DNA of 49,097 bases from an uncultured Bacteroidota bacterium (GTDB lineage Bacteria; Bacteroidota; Bacteroidia; AKYH767-A; 2013-40CM-41-45), in the NCBI GenBank assembly GCA_937871435.1, contig CALMQM010000078.1, forward strand, positions 1 through 49,097, read 5' to 3'. The notes under the pieces are model-generated. The model was not told where the DNA came from and ran no database searches. It saw only the letters and a program-made list of their open reading frames with translations. Of this stretch, positions 373-44,283 are shown in pieces. Made by a program: the position numbers and the translations under genes. Position 1 is the stretch's first letter, and each line of letters starts with the position of its first letter.

Positions 373-1305
373 ATGGAGCGCAACGTGAAGCTGTTTTCGG
401 GTACAGCTACCCATTATCTTGCAGAACGCATAGCCCTTGGCTATGGATTACCTCTCGGCGAAGTGAATGTTGCCCGCTTCAGCGATGGCGAATTCTCTCC
501 TTCCTTCGATGAATCCGTTCGCGGCTGCGATGTGTTTATTATCCAGTCGACTTTCGCTCCATCAGATAACCTGATGGAACTTTTGTTACTGATCGACGCG
601 GCAAAGAGAGCTTCCGCACATTATATCACAGCGGTAATTCCTTATTTCGGATTTGCCAGATCTGATCGCAAAGACAAACCACGGGTTTCAATCGCTTCCA
701 AACTGGTTGCGAATATGCTCACCGCTGCCGGTGTTACGCGTGTGATTACCATGGATCTTCATGCTCCGCAAATCCAGGGATTCTTTGACATCCCGGTAGA
801 TCACCTCGAACCATCTTCTCTATTCGTTCCCTATATCGAGTCACTGCAATTGCCTAACCTCACTATCGCCGCTCCGGATATGGGCGGAGTGAACAGAGCA
901 CGGGGCTACGCGAAATATTTCAACGCGGAAATGGTGATCTGCGATAAGCACCGTAAAAAAGCGAATGAAATTGATACCATGACAGTCATTGGTGATGTAG
1001 AAGGTCGTGATATAATTCTTGTCGATGATATCTGCGATACTGCCGGTACACTTACCAAAGCAGCCGAGATGCTGTTCGACAAAGGTGCCAGCAGTGTCCG
1101 CGCATTTTGTACACATCCTGTACTGAGTGGCAAAGCATACGAACGCATCAAAAATTCCCGACTTACAGAACTCGTAGTTACAGACACCATTCCACTGCGT
1201 GAAGAATGCGATAAGATAAAAGTTATCTCCACAGCGGAACTCTTCTCAAGAATTATCCGAAGAGTGTATGTGTATGAGTCTATAAGTCAGCTATTCCTTG
1301 TATAG
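373..1305 (+). CDS. prs: Ribose-phosphate pyrophosphokinase (PRPP synthetase)
   Basis: A 310-residue protein that transfers pyrophosphate from ATP to ribose 5-phosphate, giving PRPP for purine, pyrimidine, NAD, histidine and tryptophan synthesis in the cytoplasm. The N-terminal KLFSGTATHYLAERIA and the SDGEF segment fit the family. So do the ATP/flexible-loop region with FGFARSDRKDKPR (about residues 90-105), MDLHAPQIQGFF, and the PRPP-binding loop VDDICDTAGT (about 217-226). Length is typical of bacterial Prs. The start at 373 was chosen because family similarity begins at MERNVKLFSG and a plausible promoter lies just upstream. The TAG stop (1303-1305) lies inside the first unit of a 48-bp tandem repeat, so the 3' end abuts repetitive DNA. 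Confidence 0.96.
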   Translation: MERNVKLFSGTATHYLAERIALGYGLPLGEVNVARFSDGEFSPSFDESVRGCDVFIIQSTFAPSDNLMELLLLIDAAKRASAHYITAVIPYFGFARSDRKDKPRVSIASKLVANMLTAAGVTRVITMDLHAPQIQGFFDIPVDHLEPSSLFVPYIESLQLPNLTIAAPDMGGVNRARGYAKYFNAEMVICDKHRKKANEIDTMTVIGDVEGRDIILVDDICDTAGTLTKAAEMLFDKGASSVRAFCTHPVLSGKAYERIKNSRLTELVVTDTIPLREECDKIKVISTAELFSRIIRRVYVYESISQLFLV

Positions 1306-1494
1306 GGGACGAGGGACAGGGGACGAGGGACGATGCCATACTACCTAAAATAAGGGACGAGGGACAGAGGACAAGGGACGATGCCAACCTACCTAAAATA
1401 AGGGACGAGGGACAGAGGACGAAGGACGATGCCAACCTACCTAAAATAAGGGACGAGGGACAGAGGACGAAGGACGATGCCAACCTACCTAATA
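1303..1494. repeat. Four tandem copies of a 48-bp repeat built from GGGACRA heptamers
   Basis: Units begin at 1303, 1351, 1399 and 1447, an exact 48-bp period. Each holds three or four 7-mers of the GGGACGA/GGGACAG/GGGACAA type followed by ATGCCAACCTACCTAAAATA. Copies 3 and 4 are almost identical and copy 1 is the most diverged. The last unit runs directly into the CCTAATA repeat. There are no unique spacers between units, so this is a minisatellite-like array and not CRISPR. Confidence 0.92.
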
Positions 1495-1543
1495 CCTAAT
1501 ACCTAATACCTAATACCTAATACCTAATACTTAATACCTAATA
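1487..1543. repeat. CCTAATA heptanucleotide tandem array
   Basis: About seven copies of the 7-mer CCTAATA (one variant CTTAATA) continue from the ACCTACCTAA tail of the preceding 48-bp unit. The array ends about 25 bp before the rplY start codon, so it lies in or next to the rplY leader. Confidence 0.92.
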
Positions 1544-1569
1544 ACAACAACCAATAACAAAAAAACAAA

Positions 1570-2220
1570 ATGAAATCAATTGAAATTATCGGAACAAAGA
1601 GAGCAGCTCAGACAAAGCAGGAAACAAAAAAACTGCGGGCAGAGGGTATGGTTCCGTGTGTACTGTACGGTGGAAATGAACAATACCACTTCAGCACACC
1701 GGCCATGAATCTGAAAGGCCTGGTGTACACACCGGACGTTTACACCGTTGATTTAAATATCGATGGAACGCATCACAAAGCCATCATGAAAGAAATCCAG
1801 TTTCATGCAGTATCCGATGCTATCCTCCACATCGACTTCATGGAAATGAACGATGATAAAAAAGTGGTGATCGATGTGCCTGTGAAAGTAACAGGAACAG
1901 CACCGGGAGTACGTGCGGGCGGACAGCTCATCAACAAACTCCGTCGCCTCAAAATTTCCGCATTGCCTAAACACCTTCCTGATTTCGTGGAAGTGAACAT
2001 TGGCAGTCTTGAAATCGGTGACAATATCCGCGTGCGCGACATGAAACTCGAAGGCGTTGAATTCTTCGACAGCCCTTCGAATGTAATCACTGCTGTACGT
2101 ACTACACGTGCCGTTGTCGCTGAAACACCTGCCGCTGCTGCCGCTACTCCGGCCGCTGCCGCTCCTGCCGCTGCAGCTGCGCCTGCAAAAGCCGCTGCTC
2201 CTGCAGACAAGAAAAAATAA
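1570..2220 (+). CDS. rplY: 50S ribosomal protein L25/general stress protein CTC
   Basis: A 216-residue two-domain L25 of the CTC type that binds 5S rRNA in the large ribosomal subunit. The N-terminal L25 domain (about residues 1-90) contains KRAAQTKQETKKLRAEG, VPCVLYGG and HIDFMEM. The second beta domain (about 95-180) contains VDVPVKVTGTAPGVRAGG and DNIRVRD. The last 35 or so residues form a low-complexity Ala/Pro tail ending in DKKK, often seen in Bacteroidota L25 proteins. It sits downstream of prs, as in many genomes of the phylum, and is followed by a clear terminator. No strong Shine-Dalgarno is visible; the leader is A-rich. Confidence 0.95.
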   Translation: MKSIEIIGTKRAAQTKQETKKLRAEGMVPCVLYGGNEQYHFSTPAMNLKGLVYTPDVYTVDLNIDGTHHKAIMKEIQFHAVSDAILHIDFMEMNDDKKVVIDVPVKVTGTAPGVRAGGQLINKLRRLKISALPKHLPDFVEVNIGSLEIGDNIRVRDMKLEGVEFFDSPSNVITAVRTTRAVVAETPAAAAATPAAAAPAAAAAPAKAAAPADKKK

Positions 2221-2242
2221 TTTTATCTCTTTACCTGTTATT

Positions 2243-2277
2243 AAAACCTTTCTCCTTTCGGAGAAAGGTTTTTTTAT
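2243..2277 (+). terminator. Rho-independent terminator of rplY
   Basis: A perfect 13-bp stem pairs 2243-2255 with 2260-2272 around the loop TTTC, and its 3' arm runs into a T-rich stretch. It starts 23 bp after the rplY stop. Confidence 0.92.
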
Positions 2278-2348
2278 TTCCGCTTTTTGCCGGACAATTT
2301 CTCTCATGCGAAAGAGTCGATCAAACATTTCCGCATAAAAAGAAAGTG

Positions 2349-2356
2349 TATATTTG
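2349..2356 (+). promoter_or_regulatory. Candidate -7 box (TATATTTG)
   Basis: It matches the Bacteroidota -7 consensus TAnnTTTG exactly and lies 24 nt before the ATG at 2381. No good -33 TTG is present at the expected spacing. Confidence 0.4.
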
Positions 2357-2380
2357 ATCATACTCTTTAACATTCTTCGC

Positions 2381-3145
2381 ATGAAAAATTTTCTCTTGTT
2401 ACTGGTTTTCTTTTTCATTGGACACGATCTATTATTTGCCCAAACTACTTTTACCGGAACATTCAATGGTGTAGTGAATGAAGTAAATGCTGTCTTGCAC
2501 CTTCAGGAAAGTAATGGGCAACTAAGCGGAGAGTATAAAGAAGGACAAGACATCCTCACTTTGCAGGGAACAGTCCAAAACAATGCTGCGGCCGGCGAAA
2601 TGCTGGATCCCGGCAGCGGACAAGCATTGTCTACTTTTCAATTTCTACTCAACGGAAATCAGCTGAATGCTCAATTCTCAGTTCTCGGTTTCATTTCTAC
2701 TGAAGCAATATTTACTCTTGCAAACAATAAAGTTGCATCCGGAAGCTCAACGCCGGCAATCAAATCAACGACTTCTGAGAATTCTGAAAACAAAAAAGAT
2801 CTTAGCCTCGACCCACAATTGTTCGGAACCTGGATGCATGAATCAATTGTAAACTCAGGGAGTGGTTCGGAATACGCAGGATTTACTTCTGTCCGTTATT
2901 ATACTTACAATCCTGACGGAACCTACAAACAAGAAACAGCTTCCGCCGGTGGAGGCGATGGTTGGTCCGCTTCATCCAACGGCAGAACACTTGTGGAACA
3001 AGGTACATGGACAATAAAAAACGGAATCATCCACGTAAAAACAGATGATTCAAACACCTTCTCACCTATGCTCAAACACTTTTTTCACGAAGGAAATCTC
3101 GTCTTTAAAAAAGCGAATGGCGAGTATTTAATTTACCATAAATAA
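2381..3145 (+). CDS. Secreted protein with lipocalin-like C-terminal half
   Basis: A 254-residue exported protein. The ATG at 2381 gives a clean signal peptide (MKNFLLLLVFFFIG, cleavage probably after FAQ near residue 21); an upstream in-frame start at 2354 would spoil it. Residues about 22-115 form beta-rich repeats of the type FTGTFNGVVNEVNAVLHLQ, LSGEYKEG and LTLQGTV. A Ser/Asn-rich linker precedes a second part (about 145-254) beginning LFGTWMHES, with YYTYNPDGTYK, GTWTIKNG and a C-terminal EYLIYHK. That pattern fits small lipocalin-like domains of Bacteroidota exported proteins. There is no T9SS tail. Its ligand and role are unknown. Confidence 0.8.
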   Translation: MKNFLLLLVFFFIGHDLLFAQTTFTGTFNGVVNEVNAVLHLQESNGQLSGEYKEGQDILTLQGTVQNNAAAGEMLDPGSGQALSTFQFLLNGNQLNAQFSVLGFISTEAIFTLANNKVASGSSTPAIKSTTSENSENKKDLSLDPQLFGTWMHESIVNSGSGSEYAGFTSVRYYTYNPDGTYKQETASAGGGDGWSASSNGRTLVEQGTWTIKNGIIHVKTDDSNTFSPMLKHFFHEGNLVFKKANGEYLIYHK

Positions 3146-3914: not shown

Positions 3915-4682
3915 ATGAAAAGAATCTTTACTATCCTGATCTTATCAGTATTCACACTTCCAACATTTGCCCAGATTCTGGTGCAAACTGACTTCGCATC
4001 TTACAACGGTTTGTCAACCGGAGTTCCTCCGGGCTGGTTCATTTACTGGAATGACACTGCAGCAAGCCATAAATCTTTTTATACCGGTTCATCTACCTGC
4101 GGTATCGCTTGTCCGGCTTACAAATTCGGCTGGGATTCGATCTATGTTATCACTCCTGCTTTTGCACATGCTGACAGCGTGCGCTTCTACATGAAAGGCA
4201 ATGGAACATTCCAGGCAAATCGTTTCCAGGTATATGGTGGTCCGGATACAACGAACTGGACTCTGATTCAGGAGTTCAACAACGTTTCAGGATCGGCGAC
4301 AATTGTTACTTTACCTGTTGCTGATTCATACACAAATCTCAAATTCAATTATTACAAGGATTCTCTGGGATACAATGTCGGTTTCGATGACGTGTATGTA
4401 TTCGCGGGAAGCTTCAGCGGCATTGCTGAACATTCTGTTCTCGATGCATCGATCTACCCAAATCCTACTCAGGGAAAAATTAATGTTGAAATGGCACATT
4501 ACAGCAAGAGCCTGAGTGTGACCGTATCCAACATCCTTGGAAAAGTAGTGAAACAAGTTGTGATGAATACAATTTCTGCAAACTACGAAGTGGACCTCAA
4601 CGATCTTGAAGATGGAGTGTACATGGTAAATGTTCGCAACGAATTTGGTGAGAAGACTCAGAGAGTTGTACTCAAGAAATAA
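3915..4682 (+). CDS. T9SS-sorted secreted protein, choice-of-anchor J/MAM-like domain
   Basis: A 255-residue exported protein. The ATG at 3915 gives MKRIFTILILSVFTLPTFAQ, a signal peptide ending in the typical FAQ. Residues about 25-170 read as one beta-sandwich of the cleaved-adhesin/choice-of-anchor J type: FASYNGLSTGVPPGWFIYWN, YVITPAFAHADSVRFYMKG and LKFNYYKDSLGYNVGFDDVYVF. The last 75 or so residues are a type A T9SS sorting domain (SIYPNPTQGKINVEM, VTVSNILGKVVKQV, LEDGVYMVNVRN, QRVVLKK). It is predicted to be exported by Sec, then moved to the surface or medium by the type IX machinery, which is not in this window. A hairpin follows the stop. Confidence 0.9.
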   Translation: MKRIFTILILSVFTLPTFAQILVQTDFASYNGLSTGVPPGWFIYWNDTAASHKSFYTGSSTCGIACPAYKFGWDSIYVITPAFAHADSVRFYMKGNGTFQANRFQVYGGPDTTNWTLIQEFNNVSGSATIVTLPVADSYTNLKFNYYKDSLGYNVGFDDVYVFAGSFSGIAEHSVLDASIYPNPTQGKINVEMAHYSKSLSVTVSNILGKVVKQVVMNTISANYEVDLNDLEDGVYMVNVRNEFGEKTQRVVLKK

Positions 4683-4701
4683 TTTTCATTTTCATGAAAA
4701 A

Positions 4702-4743
4702 ACGCAAAGGGCGCAAAGATTCATTTCTTTGCGCCCTTTGTGT
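4702..4743. repeat. GCAAAG-type intergenic hairpin
   Basis: An 18-bp stem (4702-4719 with 4726-4743, one G-T pair) surrounds a 6-nt loop. It lies between two convergent genes and could terminate both. It belongs to the same sequence family as the hairpins near 9496, 12052 and 13566. Confidence 0.85.
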
Positions 4744-4767
4744 GTTTAGGAATATGTAGTCCTGGAT

Positions 4768-5199
4768 TTATTCAATTTTAATCTGAATGTCTTTTTCACT
4801 TTCTATTCCGGAAAAAGAAGTCAATGCATCCGATGCCGGACTTTGAAGCACTTTTCCATTCATATCAAAGATGCTACCGTGGGCAGGACAAATCAACTGA
4901 TCACCTGTTAATTCCAGTTGAGTGTTCCGGTGTGTGCAGCGCATCAACAAAGCATGCGCTTTTCCATCGCCTTCGCGAACCAACAACAATGGCTCCCTGA
5001 AATTAATCGTTTGTACTATGAGCATTTTGGAGTCGGAGAATGCTTTGAGAGGTACAACCAGAAATCCGTTTTTTGTTTTACCGGCATAGAGTCCGCCGGA
5101 AGTTTTACAGGCAGAGGAAGAAAAAATCAAACCCGCGGAAACCGCTCCGATACAAAGTTTGCATCCTGTTTTTAAAAACTCGCGCCGGTCAGATGACAT
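4768..5199 (-). CDS. Rieske [2Fe-2S] domain protein with Tat-like/lipoprotein leader
   Basis: A 143-residue protein. The N-terminus DRREFLKTGCKLCIGAVSAG resembles a twin-arginine leader (RR plus FLK), and SSSAC at about residues 27-31 could be a lipobox, so it may be a membrane-anchored periplasmic lipoprotein. The cluster-binding boxes are CTH (in MRCTHRN) and CPAHGS (in LICPAHGSIFD), about 16 residues apart as expected for a Rieske fold. This fits small ubiquinol oxidoreductase-type Rieske proteins of Bacteroidota. The redox partner is unknown; no cytochrome or oxygenase gene is adjacent. The start lies just upstream of the Tat-like motif. Confidence 0.85.
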   Translation of the reverse strand: MSSDRREFLKTGCKLCIGAVSAGLIFSSSACKTSGGLYAGKTKNGFLVVPLKAFSDSKMLIVQTINFREPLLLVREGDGKAHALLMRCTHRNTQLELTGDQLICPAHGSIFDMNGKVLQSPASDALTSFSGIESEKDIQIKIE

Positions 5200-5378
5200 A
5201 GGAATAAAATTTAATCCAAAGCAAGATACATTTTCATTTCAACGAATATCATTCAGCTTGAGTAGAATTCTGTTCACTCTCTAAAATGTGTTATATAGCA
5301 ATGCAGGAATCAACACTAAGCGTGTTCCTAAATAGTTGAATTCTCACAGGAACAAAGGATCGGAATGAAAAGACCGAA

Positions 5379-6929
5379 TCAGTTCAATCTTTTCAATGCG
5401 GCCCGGATATCTACTTTCTCATTCAGAATTTTCGCGACTTCTGAAATGGATACTCGCTCCTGAGCCATTGTATCCCTGTCACGAATGGTGACTTTGTTGT
5501 CGTTCAGTGTATCGTGATCGACAGTGATGCAAAACGGTGTACCAATAGCATCCTGTCGACGGTAACGTTTCCCGATATTGTCTTTCTCTTCGTAGAAACA
5601 CAAGTGATCGTACTTCAGCTGATCCATGATCTCGCGGGCTTTTTCCGGAAGACCGTCCTTTTTCACCAGTGGCATAATGGCGCATTTAATCGGCGCAAGA
5701 AAAGGAGGAATTCGTAGTACTACTCGCTCTGTGCCATCTTCAAGTTTTTCTTCCGCGTAACTTTGTGAAAGAATTGCGAGGAACATCCTGTCCAGACCAA
5801 TGGAAGTTTCCACCACATAAGGAACGTAGTTCTGATTCAATTCAGGATCGAAGTACTGCAATTTTTTACCGGAAAATTTTTCGTGATTGCCAAGGTCAAA
5901 ATCCGTTCGTGAGTGAATTCCTTCCAGTTCCTTGAAACCAAATGGAAATTCAAATTCAATATCACACGCTGCATTGGCATAATGCGCGAGTTTGAGATGA
6001 TCATGAAAACGTTGTTTGCTTTCCGGAAAACCAAGAGAACGATGCCATTTCATGCGCGTTTCTTTCCAGTAAGAATACCATTCCATTTCAGTTCCCGGCT
6101 TGATGAAAAACTGCATTTCCATCTGTTCAAATTCCCGCATGCGGAAAATAAATTGTCGGGCGACAATTTCATTGCGAAACGCTTTTCCGGTCTGCGCGAT
6201 ACCAAAAGGAATTTTCATCCTTCCGGTTTTCTGTACGTTGAGGAAATTCACAAATATACCCTGCGCTGTTTCAGGGCGAAGATAAATCGTACTGGCTTCC
6301 TCACTCACAGAACCTACCTGAGTCGAAAACATCAGGTTGAATTGTCGCACATCTGTCCAGTTGCGTGTGCCGCTTATCGGACAAACAATTTCGAGATCCA
6401 GAATAATTTGTCTTACTTCCTCCAGGTTATTCGCCTCGAGCGCTGATTTGAATCGTGCATTGATCGCATCAATCTTTTGTTGGTTCTCGAGAACCCTCGG
6501 ATTCGTGCTGCGGAATTGATCTTCATTGAATGCATCACCAAAACGTCCGCGGGCCTTTTCAACTTCTTTAAAAATCTTTGCTTCAATTTTTGCCACATGA
6601 TCTTCAATGAGCACATCGGCACGGTATCTTTTTTTCGAATCCTTGTTATCGACCAGAGGATCATTGAAAGCATCTACGTGACCGGATGCTTTCCATGTTG
6701 TGGGATGCATAAAAATCGCGGCGTCAATACCAACGATATTTTCATTCATCTGAACCATTGCCTTCCACCAGAATTCACGAATGTTCTTTTTCAACTCGGC
6801 TCCATTCTGTCCGTAATCATAAACAGCACTCAGTCCGTCATAGATTTCACTGGAAGGAAAAATAAACCCATACTCTTTTGCATGGGAAATAATGTTTTTG
6901 AAGAGATCTTCACTGTTAGTACTTGCCAT
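5379..6929 (-). CDS. glyS: Glycyl-tRNA synthetase, single-chain class II type
   Basis: A 516-residue enzyme charging tRNA-Gly. Class II features are visible. Motif 2 region FRNEIVARQFIFRMREFEQMEMQFF is preceded by YLRPETAQGIFVNF. The EGIHSRTDFDLGNHEKFSG insert and motif 3 region VVETSIGLDRMFLAIL follow. The C-terminal anticodon-binding domain contains LAPIKCAIMPLVKK and DAIGTPFCITVD. It is the homodimeric alpha2 form and not the alpha/beta form. The start MASTNSEDLFKNIISHAKEYGF was chosen over an upstream ATG at 6971 because similarity starts there and the box TATTTTCG ends four bases before it. The adjacent intergenic region carries heptamer repeats. Confidence 0.95.
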   Translation of the reverse strand: MASTNSEDLFKNIISHAKEYGFIFPSSEIYDGLSAVYDYGQNGAELKKNIREFWWKAMVQMNENIVGIDAAIFMHPTTWKASGHVDAFNDPLVDNKDSKKRYRADVLIEDHVAKIEAKIFKEVEKARGRFGDAFNEDQFRSTNPRVLENQQKIDAINARFKSALEANNLEEVRQIILDLEIVCPISGTRNWTDVRQFNLMFSTQVGSVSEEASTIYLRPETAQGIFVNFLNVQKTGRMKIPFGIAQTGKAFRNEIVARQFIFRMREFEQMEMQFFIKPGTEMEWYSYWKETRMKWHRSLGFPESKQRFHDHLKLAHYANAACDIEFEFPFGFKELEGIHSRTDFDLGNHEKFSGKKLQYFDPELNQNYVPYVVETSIGLDRMFLAILSQSYAEEKLEDGTERVVLRIPPFLAPIKCAIMPLVKKDGLPEKAREIMDQLKYDHLCFYEEKDNIGKRYRRQDAIGTPFCITVDHDTLNDNKVTIRDRDTMAQERVSISEVAKILNEKVDIRAALKRLN

Positions 6930-33340: not shown

Positions 33341-34798
33341 TCAGATCGTCTTTTTCAAACTGTATATCCTGAAGGATCCCTTTTGCAAGACCAGTGCGTC
33401 AAAATATGGGGATAATTCCAGGTTGTTATTGATCTTTTCGGAATCTGAATACAAATATTGCGCACCTTGATCAATCATTGTTCGGAGCATTTCCGGTGTA
33501 AGCTGATCGTTGTCAAATCCCCAACCTTTTTTATCGATATAGTAAAACATCACAAATTGCGAATCATCGTTTCCTGCAATTACCAGTGCATCTTTTGGAA
33601 CTGCATTTTGTAGTTCAGTCTTATAGGTTAATAAGTCCTTATTAAATCCGGGTGAATCATTATTCCATCTCCCCTGCATTCTTAAATAACATGAAACAGG
33701 TATGGCCAATAATAATAAGTAAGTAAGGTAACGTTTGAATTTTGAAGTACCGGTATAAAATTGAAAAGCTCCATAGGCTACGAGAATAAATAAGATAGGA
33801 TAAAAAGGGAAAAGATAATAATCGTGAACTCTTGCAATCGCATTTGCTTCAAAAAGATAATAAACAATCGCCATTACTCCTAAGGCTGCGAGTGGTAAGA
33901 ACTTCGGGTTTTGATACGCCTTGTTTTTTACTAAAAAGTAAAATCCAGCCAGAAAGAAAATCACCGATCCGTAACCGATCAGGATTTCAGGTAGGGTTGA
34001 AATCAAATTATGCTGATAATAATCGAATAGTTTCGCAACTGAATCCTGATTATTGAGCATTCCATGTACTATTACATTTCCGTTCCATTGTGGAATTACC
34101 ATTAAATACCACGTAATTGGCAGAAGAGAAAAACTAATCGCAGCGCAAAGTGAAAGAATGTCCTTGCGATGCACGCCATTTCTAATCATTTTATCTATGA
34201 AGTATGTAACAGGAACAATATAGTAGATGATAAAAGGAAGCTTACTTAGTGTTCCAATACTTAGAAGCAAACTACTGATCAGTAACCGGAATAATTTATT
34301 CTGCTTATACCACATAAAAAAGAAGACCAATCCCCAAACAGAAAAGCACAAAGCGAAATTATCAGGTAGAGGATTAATCGTATAGTAATAAAATCCGGGA
34401 CTGAAGTTGAATGCCCACGCTCCTATCGCTGATAGAACCGGTTGATTGAACAACTCATCCAACAGGCGGTAAATTCCGATAACAGTAACCAAGCCTGTCA
34501 CAAACATAAAGAGTCTGGTAATCAACAGATGATTTCCAAAGATCTTATACAAACAAGCAATGAACCATTGCATAATTGGAAACTCCATTCGAAAAACTCC
34601 ATCTGAATTGCCCCTGGCATTACGACGAGGTTTAAAAATATTCATATCCTCCTCATAAAAATTATTGATGGTGGATTGAGTCTGAGCTTGTCTCCAGACA
34701 TGAATACTCATTAAATCTTTTGTGAAATGATTAAAATGTAGTGTGGTACTTATCAGAATAATGAAAATAAAAGTAATGTTCCTTAATTTATGATTCAC
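33341..34798 (-). CDS. GT39-type membrane glycosyltransferase
   Basis: A 485-residue polytopic protein with about ten hydrophobic helices. It resembles lipid-linked-sugar transferases of the ArnT/PMT (GT39) group. The first external loop carries the acidic/aromatic HVWRQAQTQSTINNFYEEDMNIF; RMEFPIMQWFIACLYKIFGNHLLITRLF, NPLPDNFALCFSVWGL and GTLSKLPFIIYYIVP follow. A soluble C-terminal part (about 390-485) has LVIAGNDDSQFVMFYYIDKKGW and ends FRIYSLKKTI. It may move a sugar to an envelope lipid, polymer or protein. The start codon is GTG. A remnant of a second gene at 36661-36751 keeps the same GTG-AAT-CAT opening, which supports this start. Confidence 0.82.
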   Translation of the reverse strand: MNHKLRNITFIFIILISTTLHFNHFTKDLMSIHVWRQAQTQSTINNFYEEDMNIFKPRRNARGNSDGVFRMEFPIMQWFIACLYKIFGNHLLITRLFMFVTGLVTVIGIYRLLDELFNQPVLSAIGAWAFNFSPGFYYYTINPLPDNFALCFSVWGLVFFFMWYKQNKLFRLLISSLLLSIGTLSKLPFIIYYIVPVTYFIDKMIRNGVHRKDILSLCAAISFSLLPITWYLMVIPQWNGNVIVHGMLNNQDSVAKLFDYYQHNLISTLPEILIGYGSVIFFLAGFYFLVKNKAYQNPKFLPLAALGVMAIVYYLFEANAIARVHDYYLFPFYPILFILVAYGAFQFYTGTSKFKRYLTYLLLLAIPVSCYLRMQGRWNNDSPGFNKDLLTYKTELQNAVPKDALVIAGNDDSQFVMFYYIDKKGWGFDNDQLTPEMLRTMIDQGAQYLYSDSEKINNNLELSPYFDALVLQKGSFRIYSLKKTI

Positions 34799-35223: not shown

Positions 35224-35303
35224 TATTTTTCAAATCTAAAATGTTTAAAGCTGAAAGATATTTTTTCGCATTTAGATTTTCTTTTGAGATTAATTGCATG
35301 GCG

Positions 35304-35436
35304 ACTAACGAGTTGGGGGTTTGCGATGGCGAGGTGTTTTAGCACTAAACTTCATTCGGAGAACTGAACTTTCACTTTGCACAAATGTGTCTGCAAAGCA
35401 CGGAACCCCCGCTATCGCAAACCCCTTGTTATGTGC
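35304..35436. repeat. attC-like folded element
   Basis: Left part ACTAACGAG (35304-35312) and GGGGTTTGCGATGGCGAGG (35316-35334) pairs imperfectly with right part CCCCCGCTATCGCAAACCCC (35406-35425) and CTTGTTATG (35426-35433). An inner hairpin CTTTGC/GCAAAG (35375-35380 with 35393-35398) lies between. TAAC and GTTA ends, nested arms and about 130 bp total are like an integron attC site. The strict GTTRRRY end is not met (GTTATGT). GTTATGTGC ends at 35436, facing the cassette gene. Confidence 0.45.
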
Positions 35437-35489
35437 TTTTTTTCTTTTCATTTCGTGTAGTAAAATGCAGGTATTAATAGTGTCGCCGT

Positions 35490-36404
35490 TCAAAGTATGA
35501 AGATATATACAAAGTCTGCAAACGAGGGTGCTGGTCTTTCAGCGACAGGTTCTCTTTTCATTATTCCTTTAAATGCAAGTCTCAATAGTCTTTGAAGAAC
35601 GAGAAAGAAAATAGGCATTGATGTCCCTATTGAAACAAGGACTGATTTGTCTTGATGTGCAAACGCATGGTCTAAAAAATAACCATAGAGAAATATTATT
35701 AATCCAAGTGCTACTGAGCCAAAATATAGTCTGTCAACCTGAAGGATTTTATAGTCAAATGCAAGCCAACCCCAAACAGCAAATGCAATTATGTAGTTTG
35801 CTCTCATGAAGTGTTCACCTGGTTTTAAAATCAGAAAAGTCAAAACATAGGCTAAAATAACAATAGCGGTGATAATTTTGAAACGCCTAGTTAATCTGTC
35901 AGTTCTTTGTTCGGTTACTTTCTCAAGATTTTGTTCTTTCTCAATGACAATAGTTTCAGGAGCATCAAACGTCAAGTCGTTTGGCAGTCTGTAAATTTTC
36001 TTTTCACTTGTTTCTGTTATTCTACCGCCAAAGTCAATTTTGAAAGTTTCGTTTTCAGAAGTGGTCACGAAAACATTATCGTAGTCTTTGTCAGTCGGGG
36101 ATATGTAAACTAACAAATTCTTGTTTTTGAGTTTGTCATCTACTTTTCCTGTCGTGAAACCTTCAATGTCAATTTTATATTGAATTCCTTCTGGATAGTT
36201 CAGATAGTTTATGAGATAATAAAACCTTTCGTTGTCGAGTCGCTCGTCTGCTTGTATTATATGACTTCCACGTCCGTTCTTAAAAAGTTGAAAAGTCAAG
36301 CCGTCTTGAAGGTCTTTTGAATAAAGGTCAATCCACAGTCGCAACGCTTTCTTTATGTCGTTGTATACTCCGCCTTTTATTACTATGAGATTGTCATTTG
36401 TCAC
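35490..36404 (-). CDS. Membrane protein carried on a possible gene cassette
   Basis: A 304-residue protein I do not recognise. Residues 1-170 are soluble (IVIKGGVYNDIKKALRLWIDLY, GLTFQLFKNGRGSHIIQADERLDNERFYYLINYL, FVTTSENETFKIDFGGRI). Four hydrophobic helices follow (about 178-195, 203-220, 227-246, 255-275), then the cytosolic-like tail GIMKREPVAERPAPSFADFVYIFIL. The gene is flanked by GTTATGTGC on the left (35428-35436) and GCACATAAC on the right (36428-36436), inverted copies of one 9-mer. That suggests it moves as a unit. The A+T-rich codon use looks stronger than in the neighbours. No function can be named. Confidence 0.75.
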   Translation of the reverse strand: MTNDNLIVIKGGVYNDIKKALRLWIDLYSKDLQDGLTFQLFKNGRGSHIIQADERLDNERFYYLINYLNYPEGIQYKIDIEGFTTGKVDDKLKNKNLLVYISPTDKDYDNVFVTTSENETFKIDFGGRITETSEKKIYRLPNDLTFDAPETIVIEKEQNLEKVTEQRTDRLTRRFKIITAIVILAYVLTFLILKPGEHFMRANYIIAFAVWGWLAFDYKILQVDRLYFGSVALGLIIFLYGYFLDHAFAHQDKSVLVSIGTSMPIFFLVLQRLLRLAFKGIMKREPVAERPAPSFADFVYIFIL

Positions 36405-36427
36405 GCTGTTGTTGGTCTTTTAAAATG

Positions 36428-36493
36428 GCACATAACATCCCAATATACGCAACATATTGCGTATATACATTGAATTTGGTTGGATATACGCAA
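36428..36493. repeat. Right-hand cassette boundary with ATATACGCAA repeats
   Basis: GCACATAAC (36428-36436) is followed by ATATACGCAA (36443-36452), TTGCGTATAT (36457-36466) and ATATACGCAA again (36484-36493). The first two form a perfect hairpin with a 4-nt loop; the second can pair instead with the third. Alternating pairing of this kind is seen in recombination sites and in RNA switches. Confidence 0.7.
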
Positions 36494-36660
36494 TTAATTG
36501 AATGTAGATTGGTCAAGTTCCCTGGCGCACGGGCGTGCGTAAAAGACCTGGCCCAACAGGGTTCCTTAGAAATTTTTACACAACATAGAAGAAAGTTTAA
36601 ACGTAGAGCCATTCAATGTGGATTTAAATCACACCGCTAAAAAACAACGGATAAATATCC
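36494..36660. other. Gene-free stretch with one dispersed short repeat
   Basis: No gene is seen. It contains GTGGATTTAAATCACAC (36618-36634), which occurs identically at 48760-48776 and in variant form at 44498-44514. Confidence 0.5.
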
Positions 36661-36751
36661 GTCGAAGCGCGTGGGGATAATTCCGGTGTAGCAAGTTGTA
36701 TTGATCAGTACAACAGCAATAAATGTGATGTTTCTTACCTTATGATTCACT
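36661..36751 (-). pseudogene. Internally deleted remnant of a second GT39-type gene
   Basis: Reading the minus strand from GTG at 36750 gives VNHKVRNITFIAVVLINTT. This matches the first 19 residues of the intact glycosyltransferase (MNHKLRNITFIFIILISTT) with conservative changes. The sequence then jumps straight to GGAATTATCCCC and TTCGACG, corresponding to codons near residue 460 of the intact gene (LELSPYFDA). Roughly 440 codons are missing. The junction lies in a short stretch similar at both ends (GTTGTATTGATC). Nucleotide identity in the 5' part is about 75% by eye over 56 bp. Confidence 0.7.
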
Positions 36752-42831: not shown

Positions 42832-44283
42832 ATGAATAAGCTCCGCTATCTGCTTCTCCTTGGTTTTCTTTTAATAAACATTTCCGCTTTTTCCAGTCAT
42901 GCCATGGGCGGAGAAATCACTTATGAATGCCTGGGAGCAAATCAGTACCATGTTAAATTGATTCTCATCAGAGATTGTTCGGGTATTCCGATGACTTCTT
43001 CCAGAACAATTGTGATCACAAATTCCTGTGGTCTGACAAGCCCGACACTCACTGTAAACCAGGTTGGAAATCCGGATGTGATTTCTTCCGTCTGTTACAC
43101 AGGACTTACCACATGCAATGGAGGAATAGAATTTGGGATGGAACGCTATACTTATGAAGGCACTGTAACCTTGACAGGTGCCTGCAGCGACTGGACATTG
43201 GGACACACATTAGCCGATCGTAACAACTCAATTACCACCACAGCGGGAGCAGGAAATGACAGTTTGTACATCTACACACAAATCAACAATACCAATTCAA
43301 TCTGCAACAACTCACCTGTCTTCGCAAATATAGCCGCCGGAATTTTTTATCTCGGGTATGCTACCTGTTATACGCAGGGTGTATACGATCCTGATGGTGA
43401 TTCACTCGCTTTTCAAATGACACCGCCGCGCACAGGTCCTGCTGCAGGTGATACGGTTCAGTATCTCAGCGGATACAATTCAAGCAATCCGATACATTCA
43501 CAATCGGCTCTCAGCTTTGATAATGCAACCGGCGATTTGTGTTTTACTCCAGTACAAATAGAGAACTCAGTGTGGGCGCTTGTCATATCGGAATACCGGA
43601 ACGGCGTACTCATTGGTCAGGTTGAACGGGATATTCAGCTACGATTGCAACCGGATCCAGTCCCCAACAATATTCCAACCTTGTCCGGTTTTGATGGGGG
43701 CAACAGCTTTAGTCAGAATGCATGTCCCGGTTCGCCGGTAAACTTTTTTATTGCGGCGTATGATGCAAATGCTCAGGAAGATTTAACCATGAACTGGGAT
43801 CACGGAATCACGAATGCCATCTGGACAAATAATACTTCCACGAATTCCAACTATGATACTGCTTTTTTCAGCTGGACCCCTACTCTGGCTGACGTGAGTA
43901 CTACTCCTCATTGTATTACAGCAAGCGTTCACGACAGTCATTGTCCTTATACCGCTTCTCAGATACGTCAATATTGCATTACTGTATTACCGATCACTGA
44001 TCCATTTTGTATAAACCCCGGAATTTTCGAATCAACGACAGACCTTGGTGTAGAGGTATTTCCGAATCCAGTACAAAACGAATTACATATCGAAATCAGA
44101 AACTCCTCCTCGCCTGCAGTCAGCTGCATGTTTTATAATATACTCGGTCAGCCAATCCTGAACAGACAATTTTCCCCGAAAGAAAAGAACACAGTAGATG
44201 TTTCAGAATGGCAGCGTGGAATTTACATGGTAAAAATTATTGACCGGGATAAAATTTCAATACAATGGATTATGCTTCTCTGA
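42832..44283 (+). CDS. T9SS-sorted surface protein, paralogue of the 12136-13563 product
   Basis: A 483-residue exported protein. The signal peptide is MNKLRYLLLLGFLLINISAFS; the mature part starts SHAMGGEITYECLGANQYH. Block order follows the paralogue: LIRDCSGIPM, CYTGLTTCNGGIEFGMERYTYEGTVTLTGACSDW, INNTNSICNNSPVF, GVYDPDGDSLAFQMTPP, LVISEYRNGVLIGQVERDIQLRL, FFSWTPTLADVSTTPHCITASVHDSHCPY. The C-terminal sorting domain is VEVFPNPVQNELHIEI with SEWQRGIYMVKIID. Many paired cysteines suggest disulfide-rich Ig-like modules. The two copies lie 30 kb apart, so they are not a fresh tandem duplication. Function is unknown, probably surface adhesion or structure. Confidence 0.88.
   Translation: MNKLRYLLLLGFLLINISAFSSHAMGGEITYECLGANQYHVKLILIRDCSGIPMTSSRTIVITNSCGLTSPTLTVNQVGNPDVISSVCYTGLTTCNGGIEFGMERYTYEGTVTLTGACSDWTLGHTLADRNNSITTTAGAGNDSLYIYTQINNTNSICNNSPVFANIAAGIFYLGYATCYTQGVYDPDGDSLAFQMTPPRTGPAAGDTVQYLSGYNSSNPIHSQSALSFDNATGDLCFTPVQIENSVWALVISEYRNGVLIGQVERDIQLRLQPDPVPNNIPTLSGFDGGNSFSQNACPGSPVNFFIAAYDANAQEDLTMNWDHGITNAIWTNNTSTNSNYDTAFFSWTPTLADVSTTPHCITASVHDSHCPYTASQIRQYCITVLPITDPFCINPGIFESTTDLGVEVFPNPVQNELHIEIRNSSSPAVSCMFYNILGQPILNRQFSPKEKNTVDVSEWQRGIYMVKIIDRDKISIQWIMLL

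Follow-up and report, generated by a model that had tools for sequence, protein, structure and literature searches.

The window, by which we mean the whole 49,097-nt stretch of uncultured Bacteroidota DNA analysed here, carries a gene bracketed by inverted 9-mers, which raises the question whether this gene is an integron-like cassette and, if so, which enzyme placed it there. The 9-mer occurs exactly twice in the window, as GTTATGTGC at 35428-35436 on the plus strand and as its reverse complement GCACATAAC at 36428-36436, bracketing one gene at the positions given in a preliminary description of the locus. The expectation in the shuffled window was 0.29, and at least two copies were present in 1 of 100 shuffles. 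The inverted pair can be extended to 16 nt at 88%. The gene lies on the minus strand and the unit runs right to left, so that its reading order, from 36505 down to 35301, is the right element, GTTATGTGC, the gene, GCACATAAC, the folded element and GTTAGTCGC (Table 1). No partner of GTTAGTCGC, which would start the next cassette behind the attC, was found within the window. Nor was any recombinase or recombinase remnant found above shuffles beside the unit, in agreement with the earlier statement that the window holds no integrase gene. An Rfam scan of the window matched a tRNA alone. Homologues of the cassette gene were present in 3 other genomes among 395, and those of G184 and G393 had no flanking attC. 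In the relatives searched for an empty site, the flanking gene was present and synteny was not found. What had been called the remnant of a second glycosyltransferase is a stretch of 33 nt (36718-36750) resembling, at 85%, the beginning of the glycosyltransferase gene (34766-34798).

Table 1. Coordinates of the features of the window unit and of the tet(X) cassette loci
Feature	Position	Strand	Basis
attI-like site (leader), AATTGCGTATATCCAACC...ATATACGCAA-TATG-TTGCGTATATTGGGAT ending at the GTT cassette boundary	36434..36505	-	own-genome copies; relatives beside recombinase genes
Cassette start / R' core, G/TTATGTGC on the minus strand (slash, boundary)	36428..36436	-	exact complement of R'' 35428-35436
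Whole gene cassette, TT of first boundary to G of second	35309..36435	-	start/R'' complementarity and the same rule in other units; exact cut position inferred
Cassette gene, 304 aa, GTG start	35490..36404	-	soluble N-terminal part, 3-4 predicted C-terminal membrane helices
R'' core GCACATAAC of the cassette's own attC	35428..35436	-	complementarity to cassette start
attC-like site, 136 nt	35301..35436	-	R'' GCACATAAC, arms 35407-35425 and 35316-35334, R' GTTAGTCGC; fold, model R1, stem covariation
R' GTTAGTCGC, start of next cassette, now absent	35301..35309	-	without partner core in the window
tet(X) cassette locus L130 (NZ_CP041297.1)	3998-6120		
tet(X) cassette locus L156 (NZ_CP043635.1)	510-2035		

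The left boundary had been described as the end of a folded, attC-like element, and this description held up. Folded as single-stranded DNA, 35302-35436 reaches -27.8 kcal/mol against a shuffled mean of -15.0 (z -4.7; 0/200 shuffles as low), with two arms of 19 nt. R1, a covariance model of 15 attC-like sites from the window's own genome and five others, scored the element at 114.6 bits, the window sequence being one of the 15 members. These sites have in common a stem of 18 pairs, interrupted by two unpaired steps, and at 17 of the 18 pairs two-sided changes occur in at least one sequence. Stem covariation was 0.723, compared with 0.191 after shuffling and at most 0.14 when the partner was slid. 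As read from these alignments, a pairing constraint acts on the stem, and it is the structure, not the sequence, that is conserved. About ten strong R1 sites are present in the window's own genome.

The right element had been taken for a second attC with ATATACGCAA repeats. The repeats are indeed there, in both inverted and direct orientation, and the fold is mildly unusual (z -1.6); the covariance-model check proposed for both elements was strongly positive on the left and left the right element unmatched. As the attC of a lost upstream cassette would, the right element ends in a GTT boundary and contains inverted repeats, but it lacks the R''/L''...L'/R' build of such a site, and its relatives adjoin recombinase genes. 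A degenerate form of its pattern, ACGCAANNNNTTGCGTAWAYNNRNNNGTTA, matched ten contigs among 84,980 species genomes, all of them Bacteroidota. In five independent loci with relatives of the leader (L038, L040, L042, L044 and L043, the last cut by the contig end), a recombinase of the family described below lies just upstream and co-oriented, so that an attI stands beside the integrase as in canonical integrons; the window copy is solitary. The distance from the tyrosine recombinase to the leader-type element downstream is 30-200 bp in other Bacteroidota. Because these relatives sit directly downstream of a tyrosine recombinase, the right element is, as judged by them, attI-like and not a second attC, and its origin as the attC of a lost cassette is very unlikely. 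The order proposed earlier, attC-gene-attC, is accordingly replaced by an apparent attI-gene-attC.

Further copies of the leader were found in the same genome on contigs C46, C54 and C76. Among 60 relatives, the exact pattern was confined to this genome, which argues that the window leader is not a repeat of the lineage. At C54, the leader is preceded at a distance of a few hundred bp by the C-terminal remnant of a recombinase of the family (0/200 shuffles as good); beside the window, C46 and C76 leaders no remnant rose above shuffles. The attI on contig C106 is weakly like the window leader (GCGGGTATTATAATGTTA vs GCGTATATTGGGATGTTA).

A search for an integron integrase had been suggested as well. 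It revealed no canonical IntI above the cut-off in the window's own genome; what it did detect, below the cut-off and without the additional domain of integron integrases, was an Xer-like tyrosine recombinase on C106 (42372-43280, open frame of 302 aa). This enzyme scored 207 bits with the integron-integrase model (cut-off 265) and 212 bits with XerA, its best NCBIfam match (cut-off 220), and its best PDB matches were also XerA. The catalytic residues could be recognised by eye (R in GLRLSE, K in GKGKKDR, HTLRH, GHSS and YTHV). Alignment with VchIntIA showed about 43 residues to be missing between positions 178 and 242, and the additional-domain region measures 40-46 aa in 35 of 35 members of the recombinase family, 44 in XerA and 82 in 30 of 30 canonical IntI of the phylum. 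The genome also holds separate XerC-like and XerD-like genes. In the tree, the IntI sequences group as a single clade (100/100) within or beside the family, which is nearer to IntI than to XerA/C/D and is monophyletic in 52% of bootstraps, the Xer outgroups being few and long-branched. Since IntI branches within or beside it, the family may represent the condition that preceded the additional domain.

We considered whether the unit belongs to an ordinary CALIN, in which a canonical IntI, complete with the additional domain, placed the cassettes and has since been lost or is in another cell. Canonical IntI is present in 105 of 395 genomes of the phylum, some of which have R1-type attC sites as well. 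The same class tells against this explanation: canonical IntI was found in G097 only, yet R1 sites (E <= 1e-6) were present in 46 of 61 genomes. These belong to a survey in which 125 of 247 Bacteroidota genomes, about half of those sampled, carried such attC-type sites (short calibration; some R1-positive genomes also carry canonical IntI). R1 matched none of 30 canonical-IntI loci, taken with short flanks, and the arrays and attI sites adjoin recombinases that lack the domain. Together with the absence of an IntI over the cut-off from the window's own genome, this makes the CALIN explanation very unlikely. A CALIN has at least two attC sites and no neighbouring integrase; the window holds a single strong attC, and in the same genome it is C59 and C54 that would fit this definition.

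The deciding evidence came from the cassette starts. In the circular form of an integron cassette, its own attC supplies the first bases (TT...), and each start should therefore complement its own R'' and not those of its neighbours. In the window this complementarity extends over 9 nt. The search for other units in the genome, proposed in the preliminary description, returned the start/R'' pairs GTTAGCGGTA/TACCGCTAAC on C54, around a TIR protein gene, GTTAGCGG/CCGCTAA on C46, and GTTACATGCA/TGCATGTAAC, GTTACCTGTA/TACAGGTAAC, GTTACCTGC/GCAGGTAAC and GTTAGCTGTG/CACAGCTAAC on C59. The cores vary from unit to unit yet agree within each unit, both here and on unrelated Bacteroidota contigs found through the leader, which bears out the earlier reading of an integron-like cassette bounded by inverted 9-mers. 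Set against the canonical integron consensus RYYYAAC / GTTRRRY, the cores keep GTTR and vary in the next two bases (GTTATGTGC, GTTAGCGGT, GTTACCTGT).

Among 29 consecutive attC pairs at R1 sites, some from loci that had fed R1 and had been chosen by this same rule, a mean of 4.97 of 6 core bases matched and 18 pairs were perfect, compared with a mean of 2.17 and a maximum of 3.21 in 5000 shuffles of the partners. Ten pairs from L092, L088, L131, L045 and C59, none of which had given sequence to R1, had a mean of 4.6. Independently of R1, we examined 23 loci of the recombinase family with at least 1.5 kb downstream: a start/R'' pair lies behind the recombinase in 16 of them at 9 nt and in 12 at 10 nt, against 1.65 and 0.45 in Markov controls and 0/22 on the upstream side.

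A transposon or MITE with 9-mer terminal inverted repeats, or a REP/BIME-like hairpin beside an unrelated gene, would account for the inverted 9-mers at both ends and for the long hairpin. The ends of such elements should be identical in every copy, and the observed cores vary and match their own partner only; in addition, a target duplication was not seen and one end is asymmetric, all of which makes this origin extremely unlikely. That a 9-nt inverted pair fell by chance around a gene near two unrelated hairpins has a negligible probability, the window pair alone being moderately unlikely in shuffles and the matched-core arrangement recurring across genome and phylum. Transposon, REP-type repeat and chance were all ruled out by a core that varies between units and matches within them.

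The window, then, very probably contains an attI-like site, a cassette and a folded attC-like site, belonging to a Bacteroidota integron-type system with an Xer-like recombinase. On the sequence comparisons made here, this system is a widespread and apparently new variant of the integron. The C106 recombinase would most likely cut beside the G of the GTT boundary. The cassette would be excised as a circle, its attC made up of R'' and the bases with which the cassette itself starts, and circles would be inserted at attI in the manner of integron integrases. The attC is probably used single-stranded, and the first cassette would be expressed from the attI side. The C106 enzyme, rather than a lost relative of which the C54 remnant is an example, would have placed the window cassette. 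Recombinase, attI and co-oriented array were found in that order, and one and the same resistance cassette lies behind attI in one replicon but behind attC in another, the switch falling at the GTT boundary. Counting against this reading are the solitary position of the window unit, away from any recombinase, the weak likeness of the C106 attI to the window leader, and the homologues of the cassette gene that have no flanking attC.

Integrons and CALINs share with this system co-oriented cassettes, the GTT boundary, an R'' complementary to the cassette's own start, a folded attC (here about 135 nt) and an attI beside a tyrosine recombinase. The family recombinase differs from IntI in having no additional domain (roughly 40 aa), and its gene was oriented with the cassettes at the loci examined, whereas the canonical integrase gene runs against them; reversed integrase orientation is known in some integrons. 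XerA has the same layout without the IntI insertion, but the family is unlike XerA/C/D in being accessory and tied to cassette arrays.

Recombinase-associated acquired interbacterial defence (rAID) clusters of Bacteroidales have a recombinase gene and, behind it, a series of orphan immunity genes. One plasmid of Bacteroides ovatus (L132, NZ_CP081918.1, 5725-12804) carries a recombinase of the family with SMI1/KNR4, Imm26, PoNe-immunity and PoNi-like genes behind it, and this gene order is the rAID arrangement. At the intergenic sites, whose boundary is ATTA, the variable core of start and R'' matched perfectly in 9 of 10 cassettes when the boundary was set at CATTA after inspection of the sequence; an automatic test that took the wrong ATTA as the start had given 6 of 10. 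The mean match in this one cluster was 4.9 of 5, against 2.19 after shuffling (0/5000 shuffles as good). The B. ovatus cluster resembles the system of the window in its same-family recombinase and in the start/R'' rule, and differs in its boundary (ATTA, not GTTR), in sites of about 60-70 nt and in its cargo of immunity genes. By the rAID definition, the window, with one cassette and no recombinase, has the recombinase family alone in common with these clusters. A 2025 preprint describes the mechanism of rAID biogenesis as undefined, and integrons go unmentioned in it (PMC12247911).

The family also occurs beside tet(X), a gene for resistance to a last-resort antibiotic. In Acinetobacter indicus p80-1-2-tetX3, the gene annotated 'xerD' encodes a truncated member of the family; behind it come an attI-like palindrome, GTTATGTGCC and then tet(X3). 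An Empedobacter brevis plasmid carries tet(X) between two complete attC sites. Identity between the two (97.5%) starts exactly at the G of the GTT boundary, upstream of which E. brevis has a complete attC. The tet(X) R'' matches its own start in part, and the cassette may for this reason be a hybrid. The xerD-tet(X3)-res-ISCR2 segment is like the window system in its family recombinase, its attI-like site and the GTT boundary before tet(X3), and differs from it in having a truncated recombinase and, after tet(X3), a cut attC. Published work on the tet(X3) segment has emphasised ISCR2 (PMC8635130), and the role of XerD beside tet(X) was left open (PMC7473080).

According to Messier and Roy (2001, as cited in PMC9668308), integron integrases alone possess the additional domain and need it for activity, and an integrase survey selected its sequences by this domain (PMC2426708). 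IntegronFinder 2 reported In0 elements and one complete integron, from Salinibacter, in Bacteroidetes (PMC9024848). In a literature search that covered mainly open-access papers, we found no description of Bacteroidota integrons with a domain-less recombinase. We think it likely, from sequence alone, that the Bacteroidota possess a phylum-wide integron lineage whose Xer-like recombinases never had, or have lost, the additional domain and were missed by domain-based surveys, and that this lineage builds the rAID immunity arrays in gut Bacteroidales and gave rise to the tet(X) cassettes, which Acinetobacter acquired later. A large cassette system of this kind would alter both the definition of integrons and the way they are looked for; it would also prompt the question of how an enzyme without the additional domain recognises attC. 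Such a system also offers a testable mechanism for gene gain in rAID clusters and for the role of 'XerD' beside tet(X).

Seven successive cassette units were found in one genome (G176). In the window's own genome, cassettes carry genes for a TIR protein, a SLATT protein, a dCTP-deaminase-like protein and a second TIR-like match, showing that defence-type cargo occurs; the searches gave no such assignment for the product of the window's own cassette. A larger array on C59 (18978-27359, L151) and C111 (3094-3894), with no adjoining recombinase, holds TIR-like, DMP19/MORN and hydrolase-like genes. Behind the intact recombinase on C106, the first cassette-like stretch (43370-44245, L029) starts, as seen by eye, with GTTACCTGCAAG and contains a DnaK/Hsp70-like reading frame that is cut by the contig end. 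In L074, L076, L089 and L090, as on C106, the contig ends soon after the recombinase, as if repeated attC sites had broken the assembly, and array sizes are underestimated as a result. One locus filed as viral, L045 (IMGVR_UViG_3300036668_000367, 649-3081), shows the attI pattern and four matches to the attC model; this may reflect either a cassette-bearing phage or bacterial DNA misfiled as viral.
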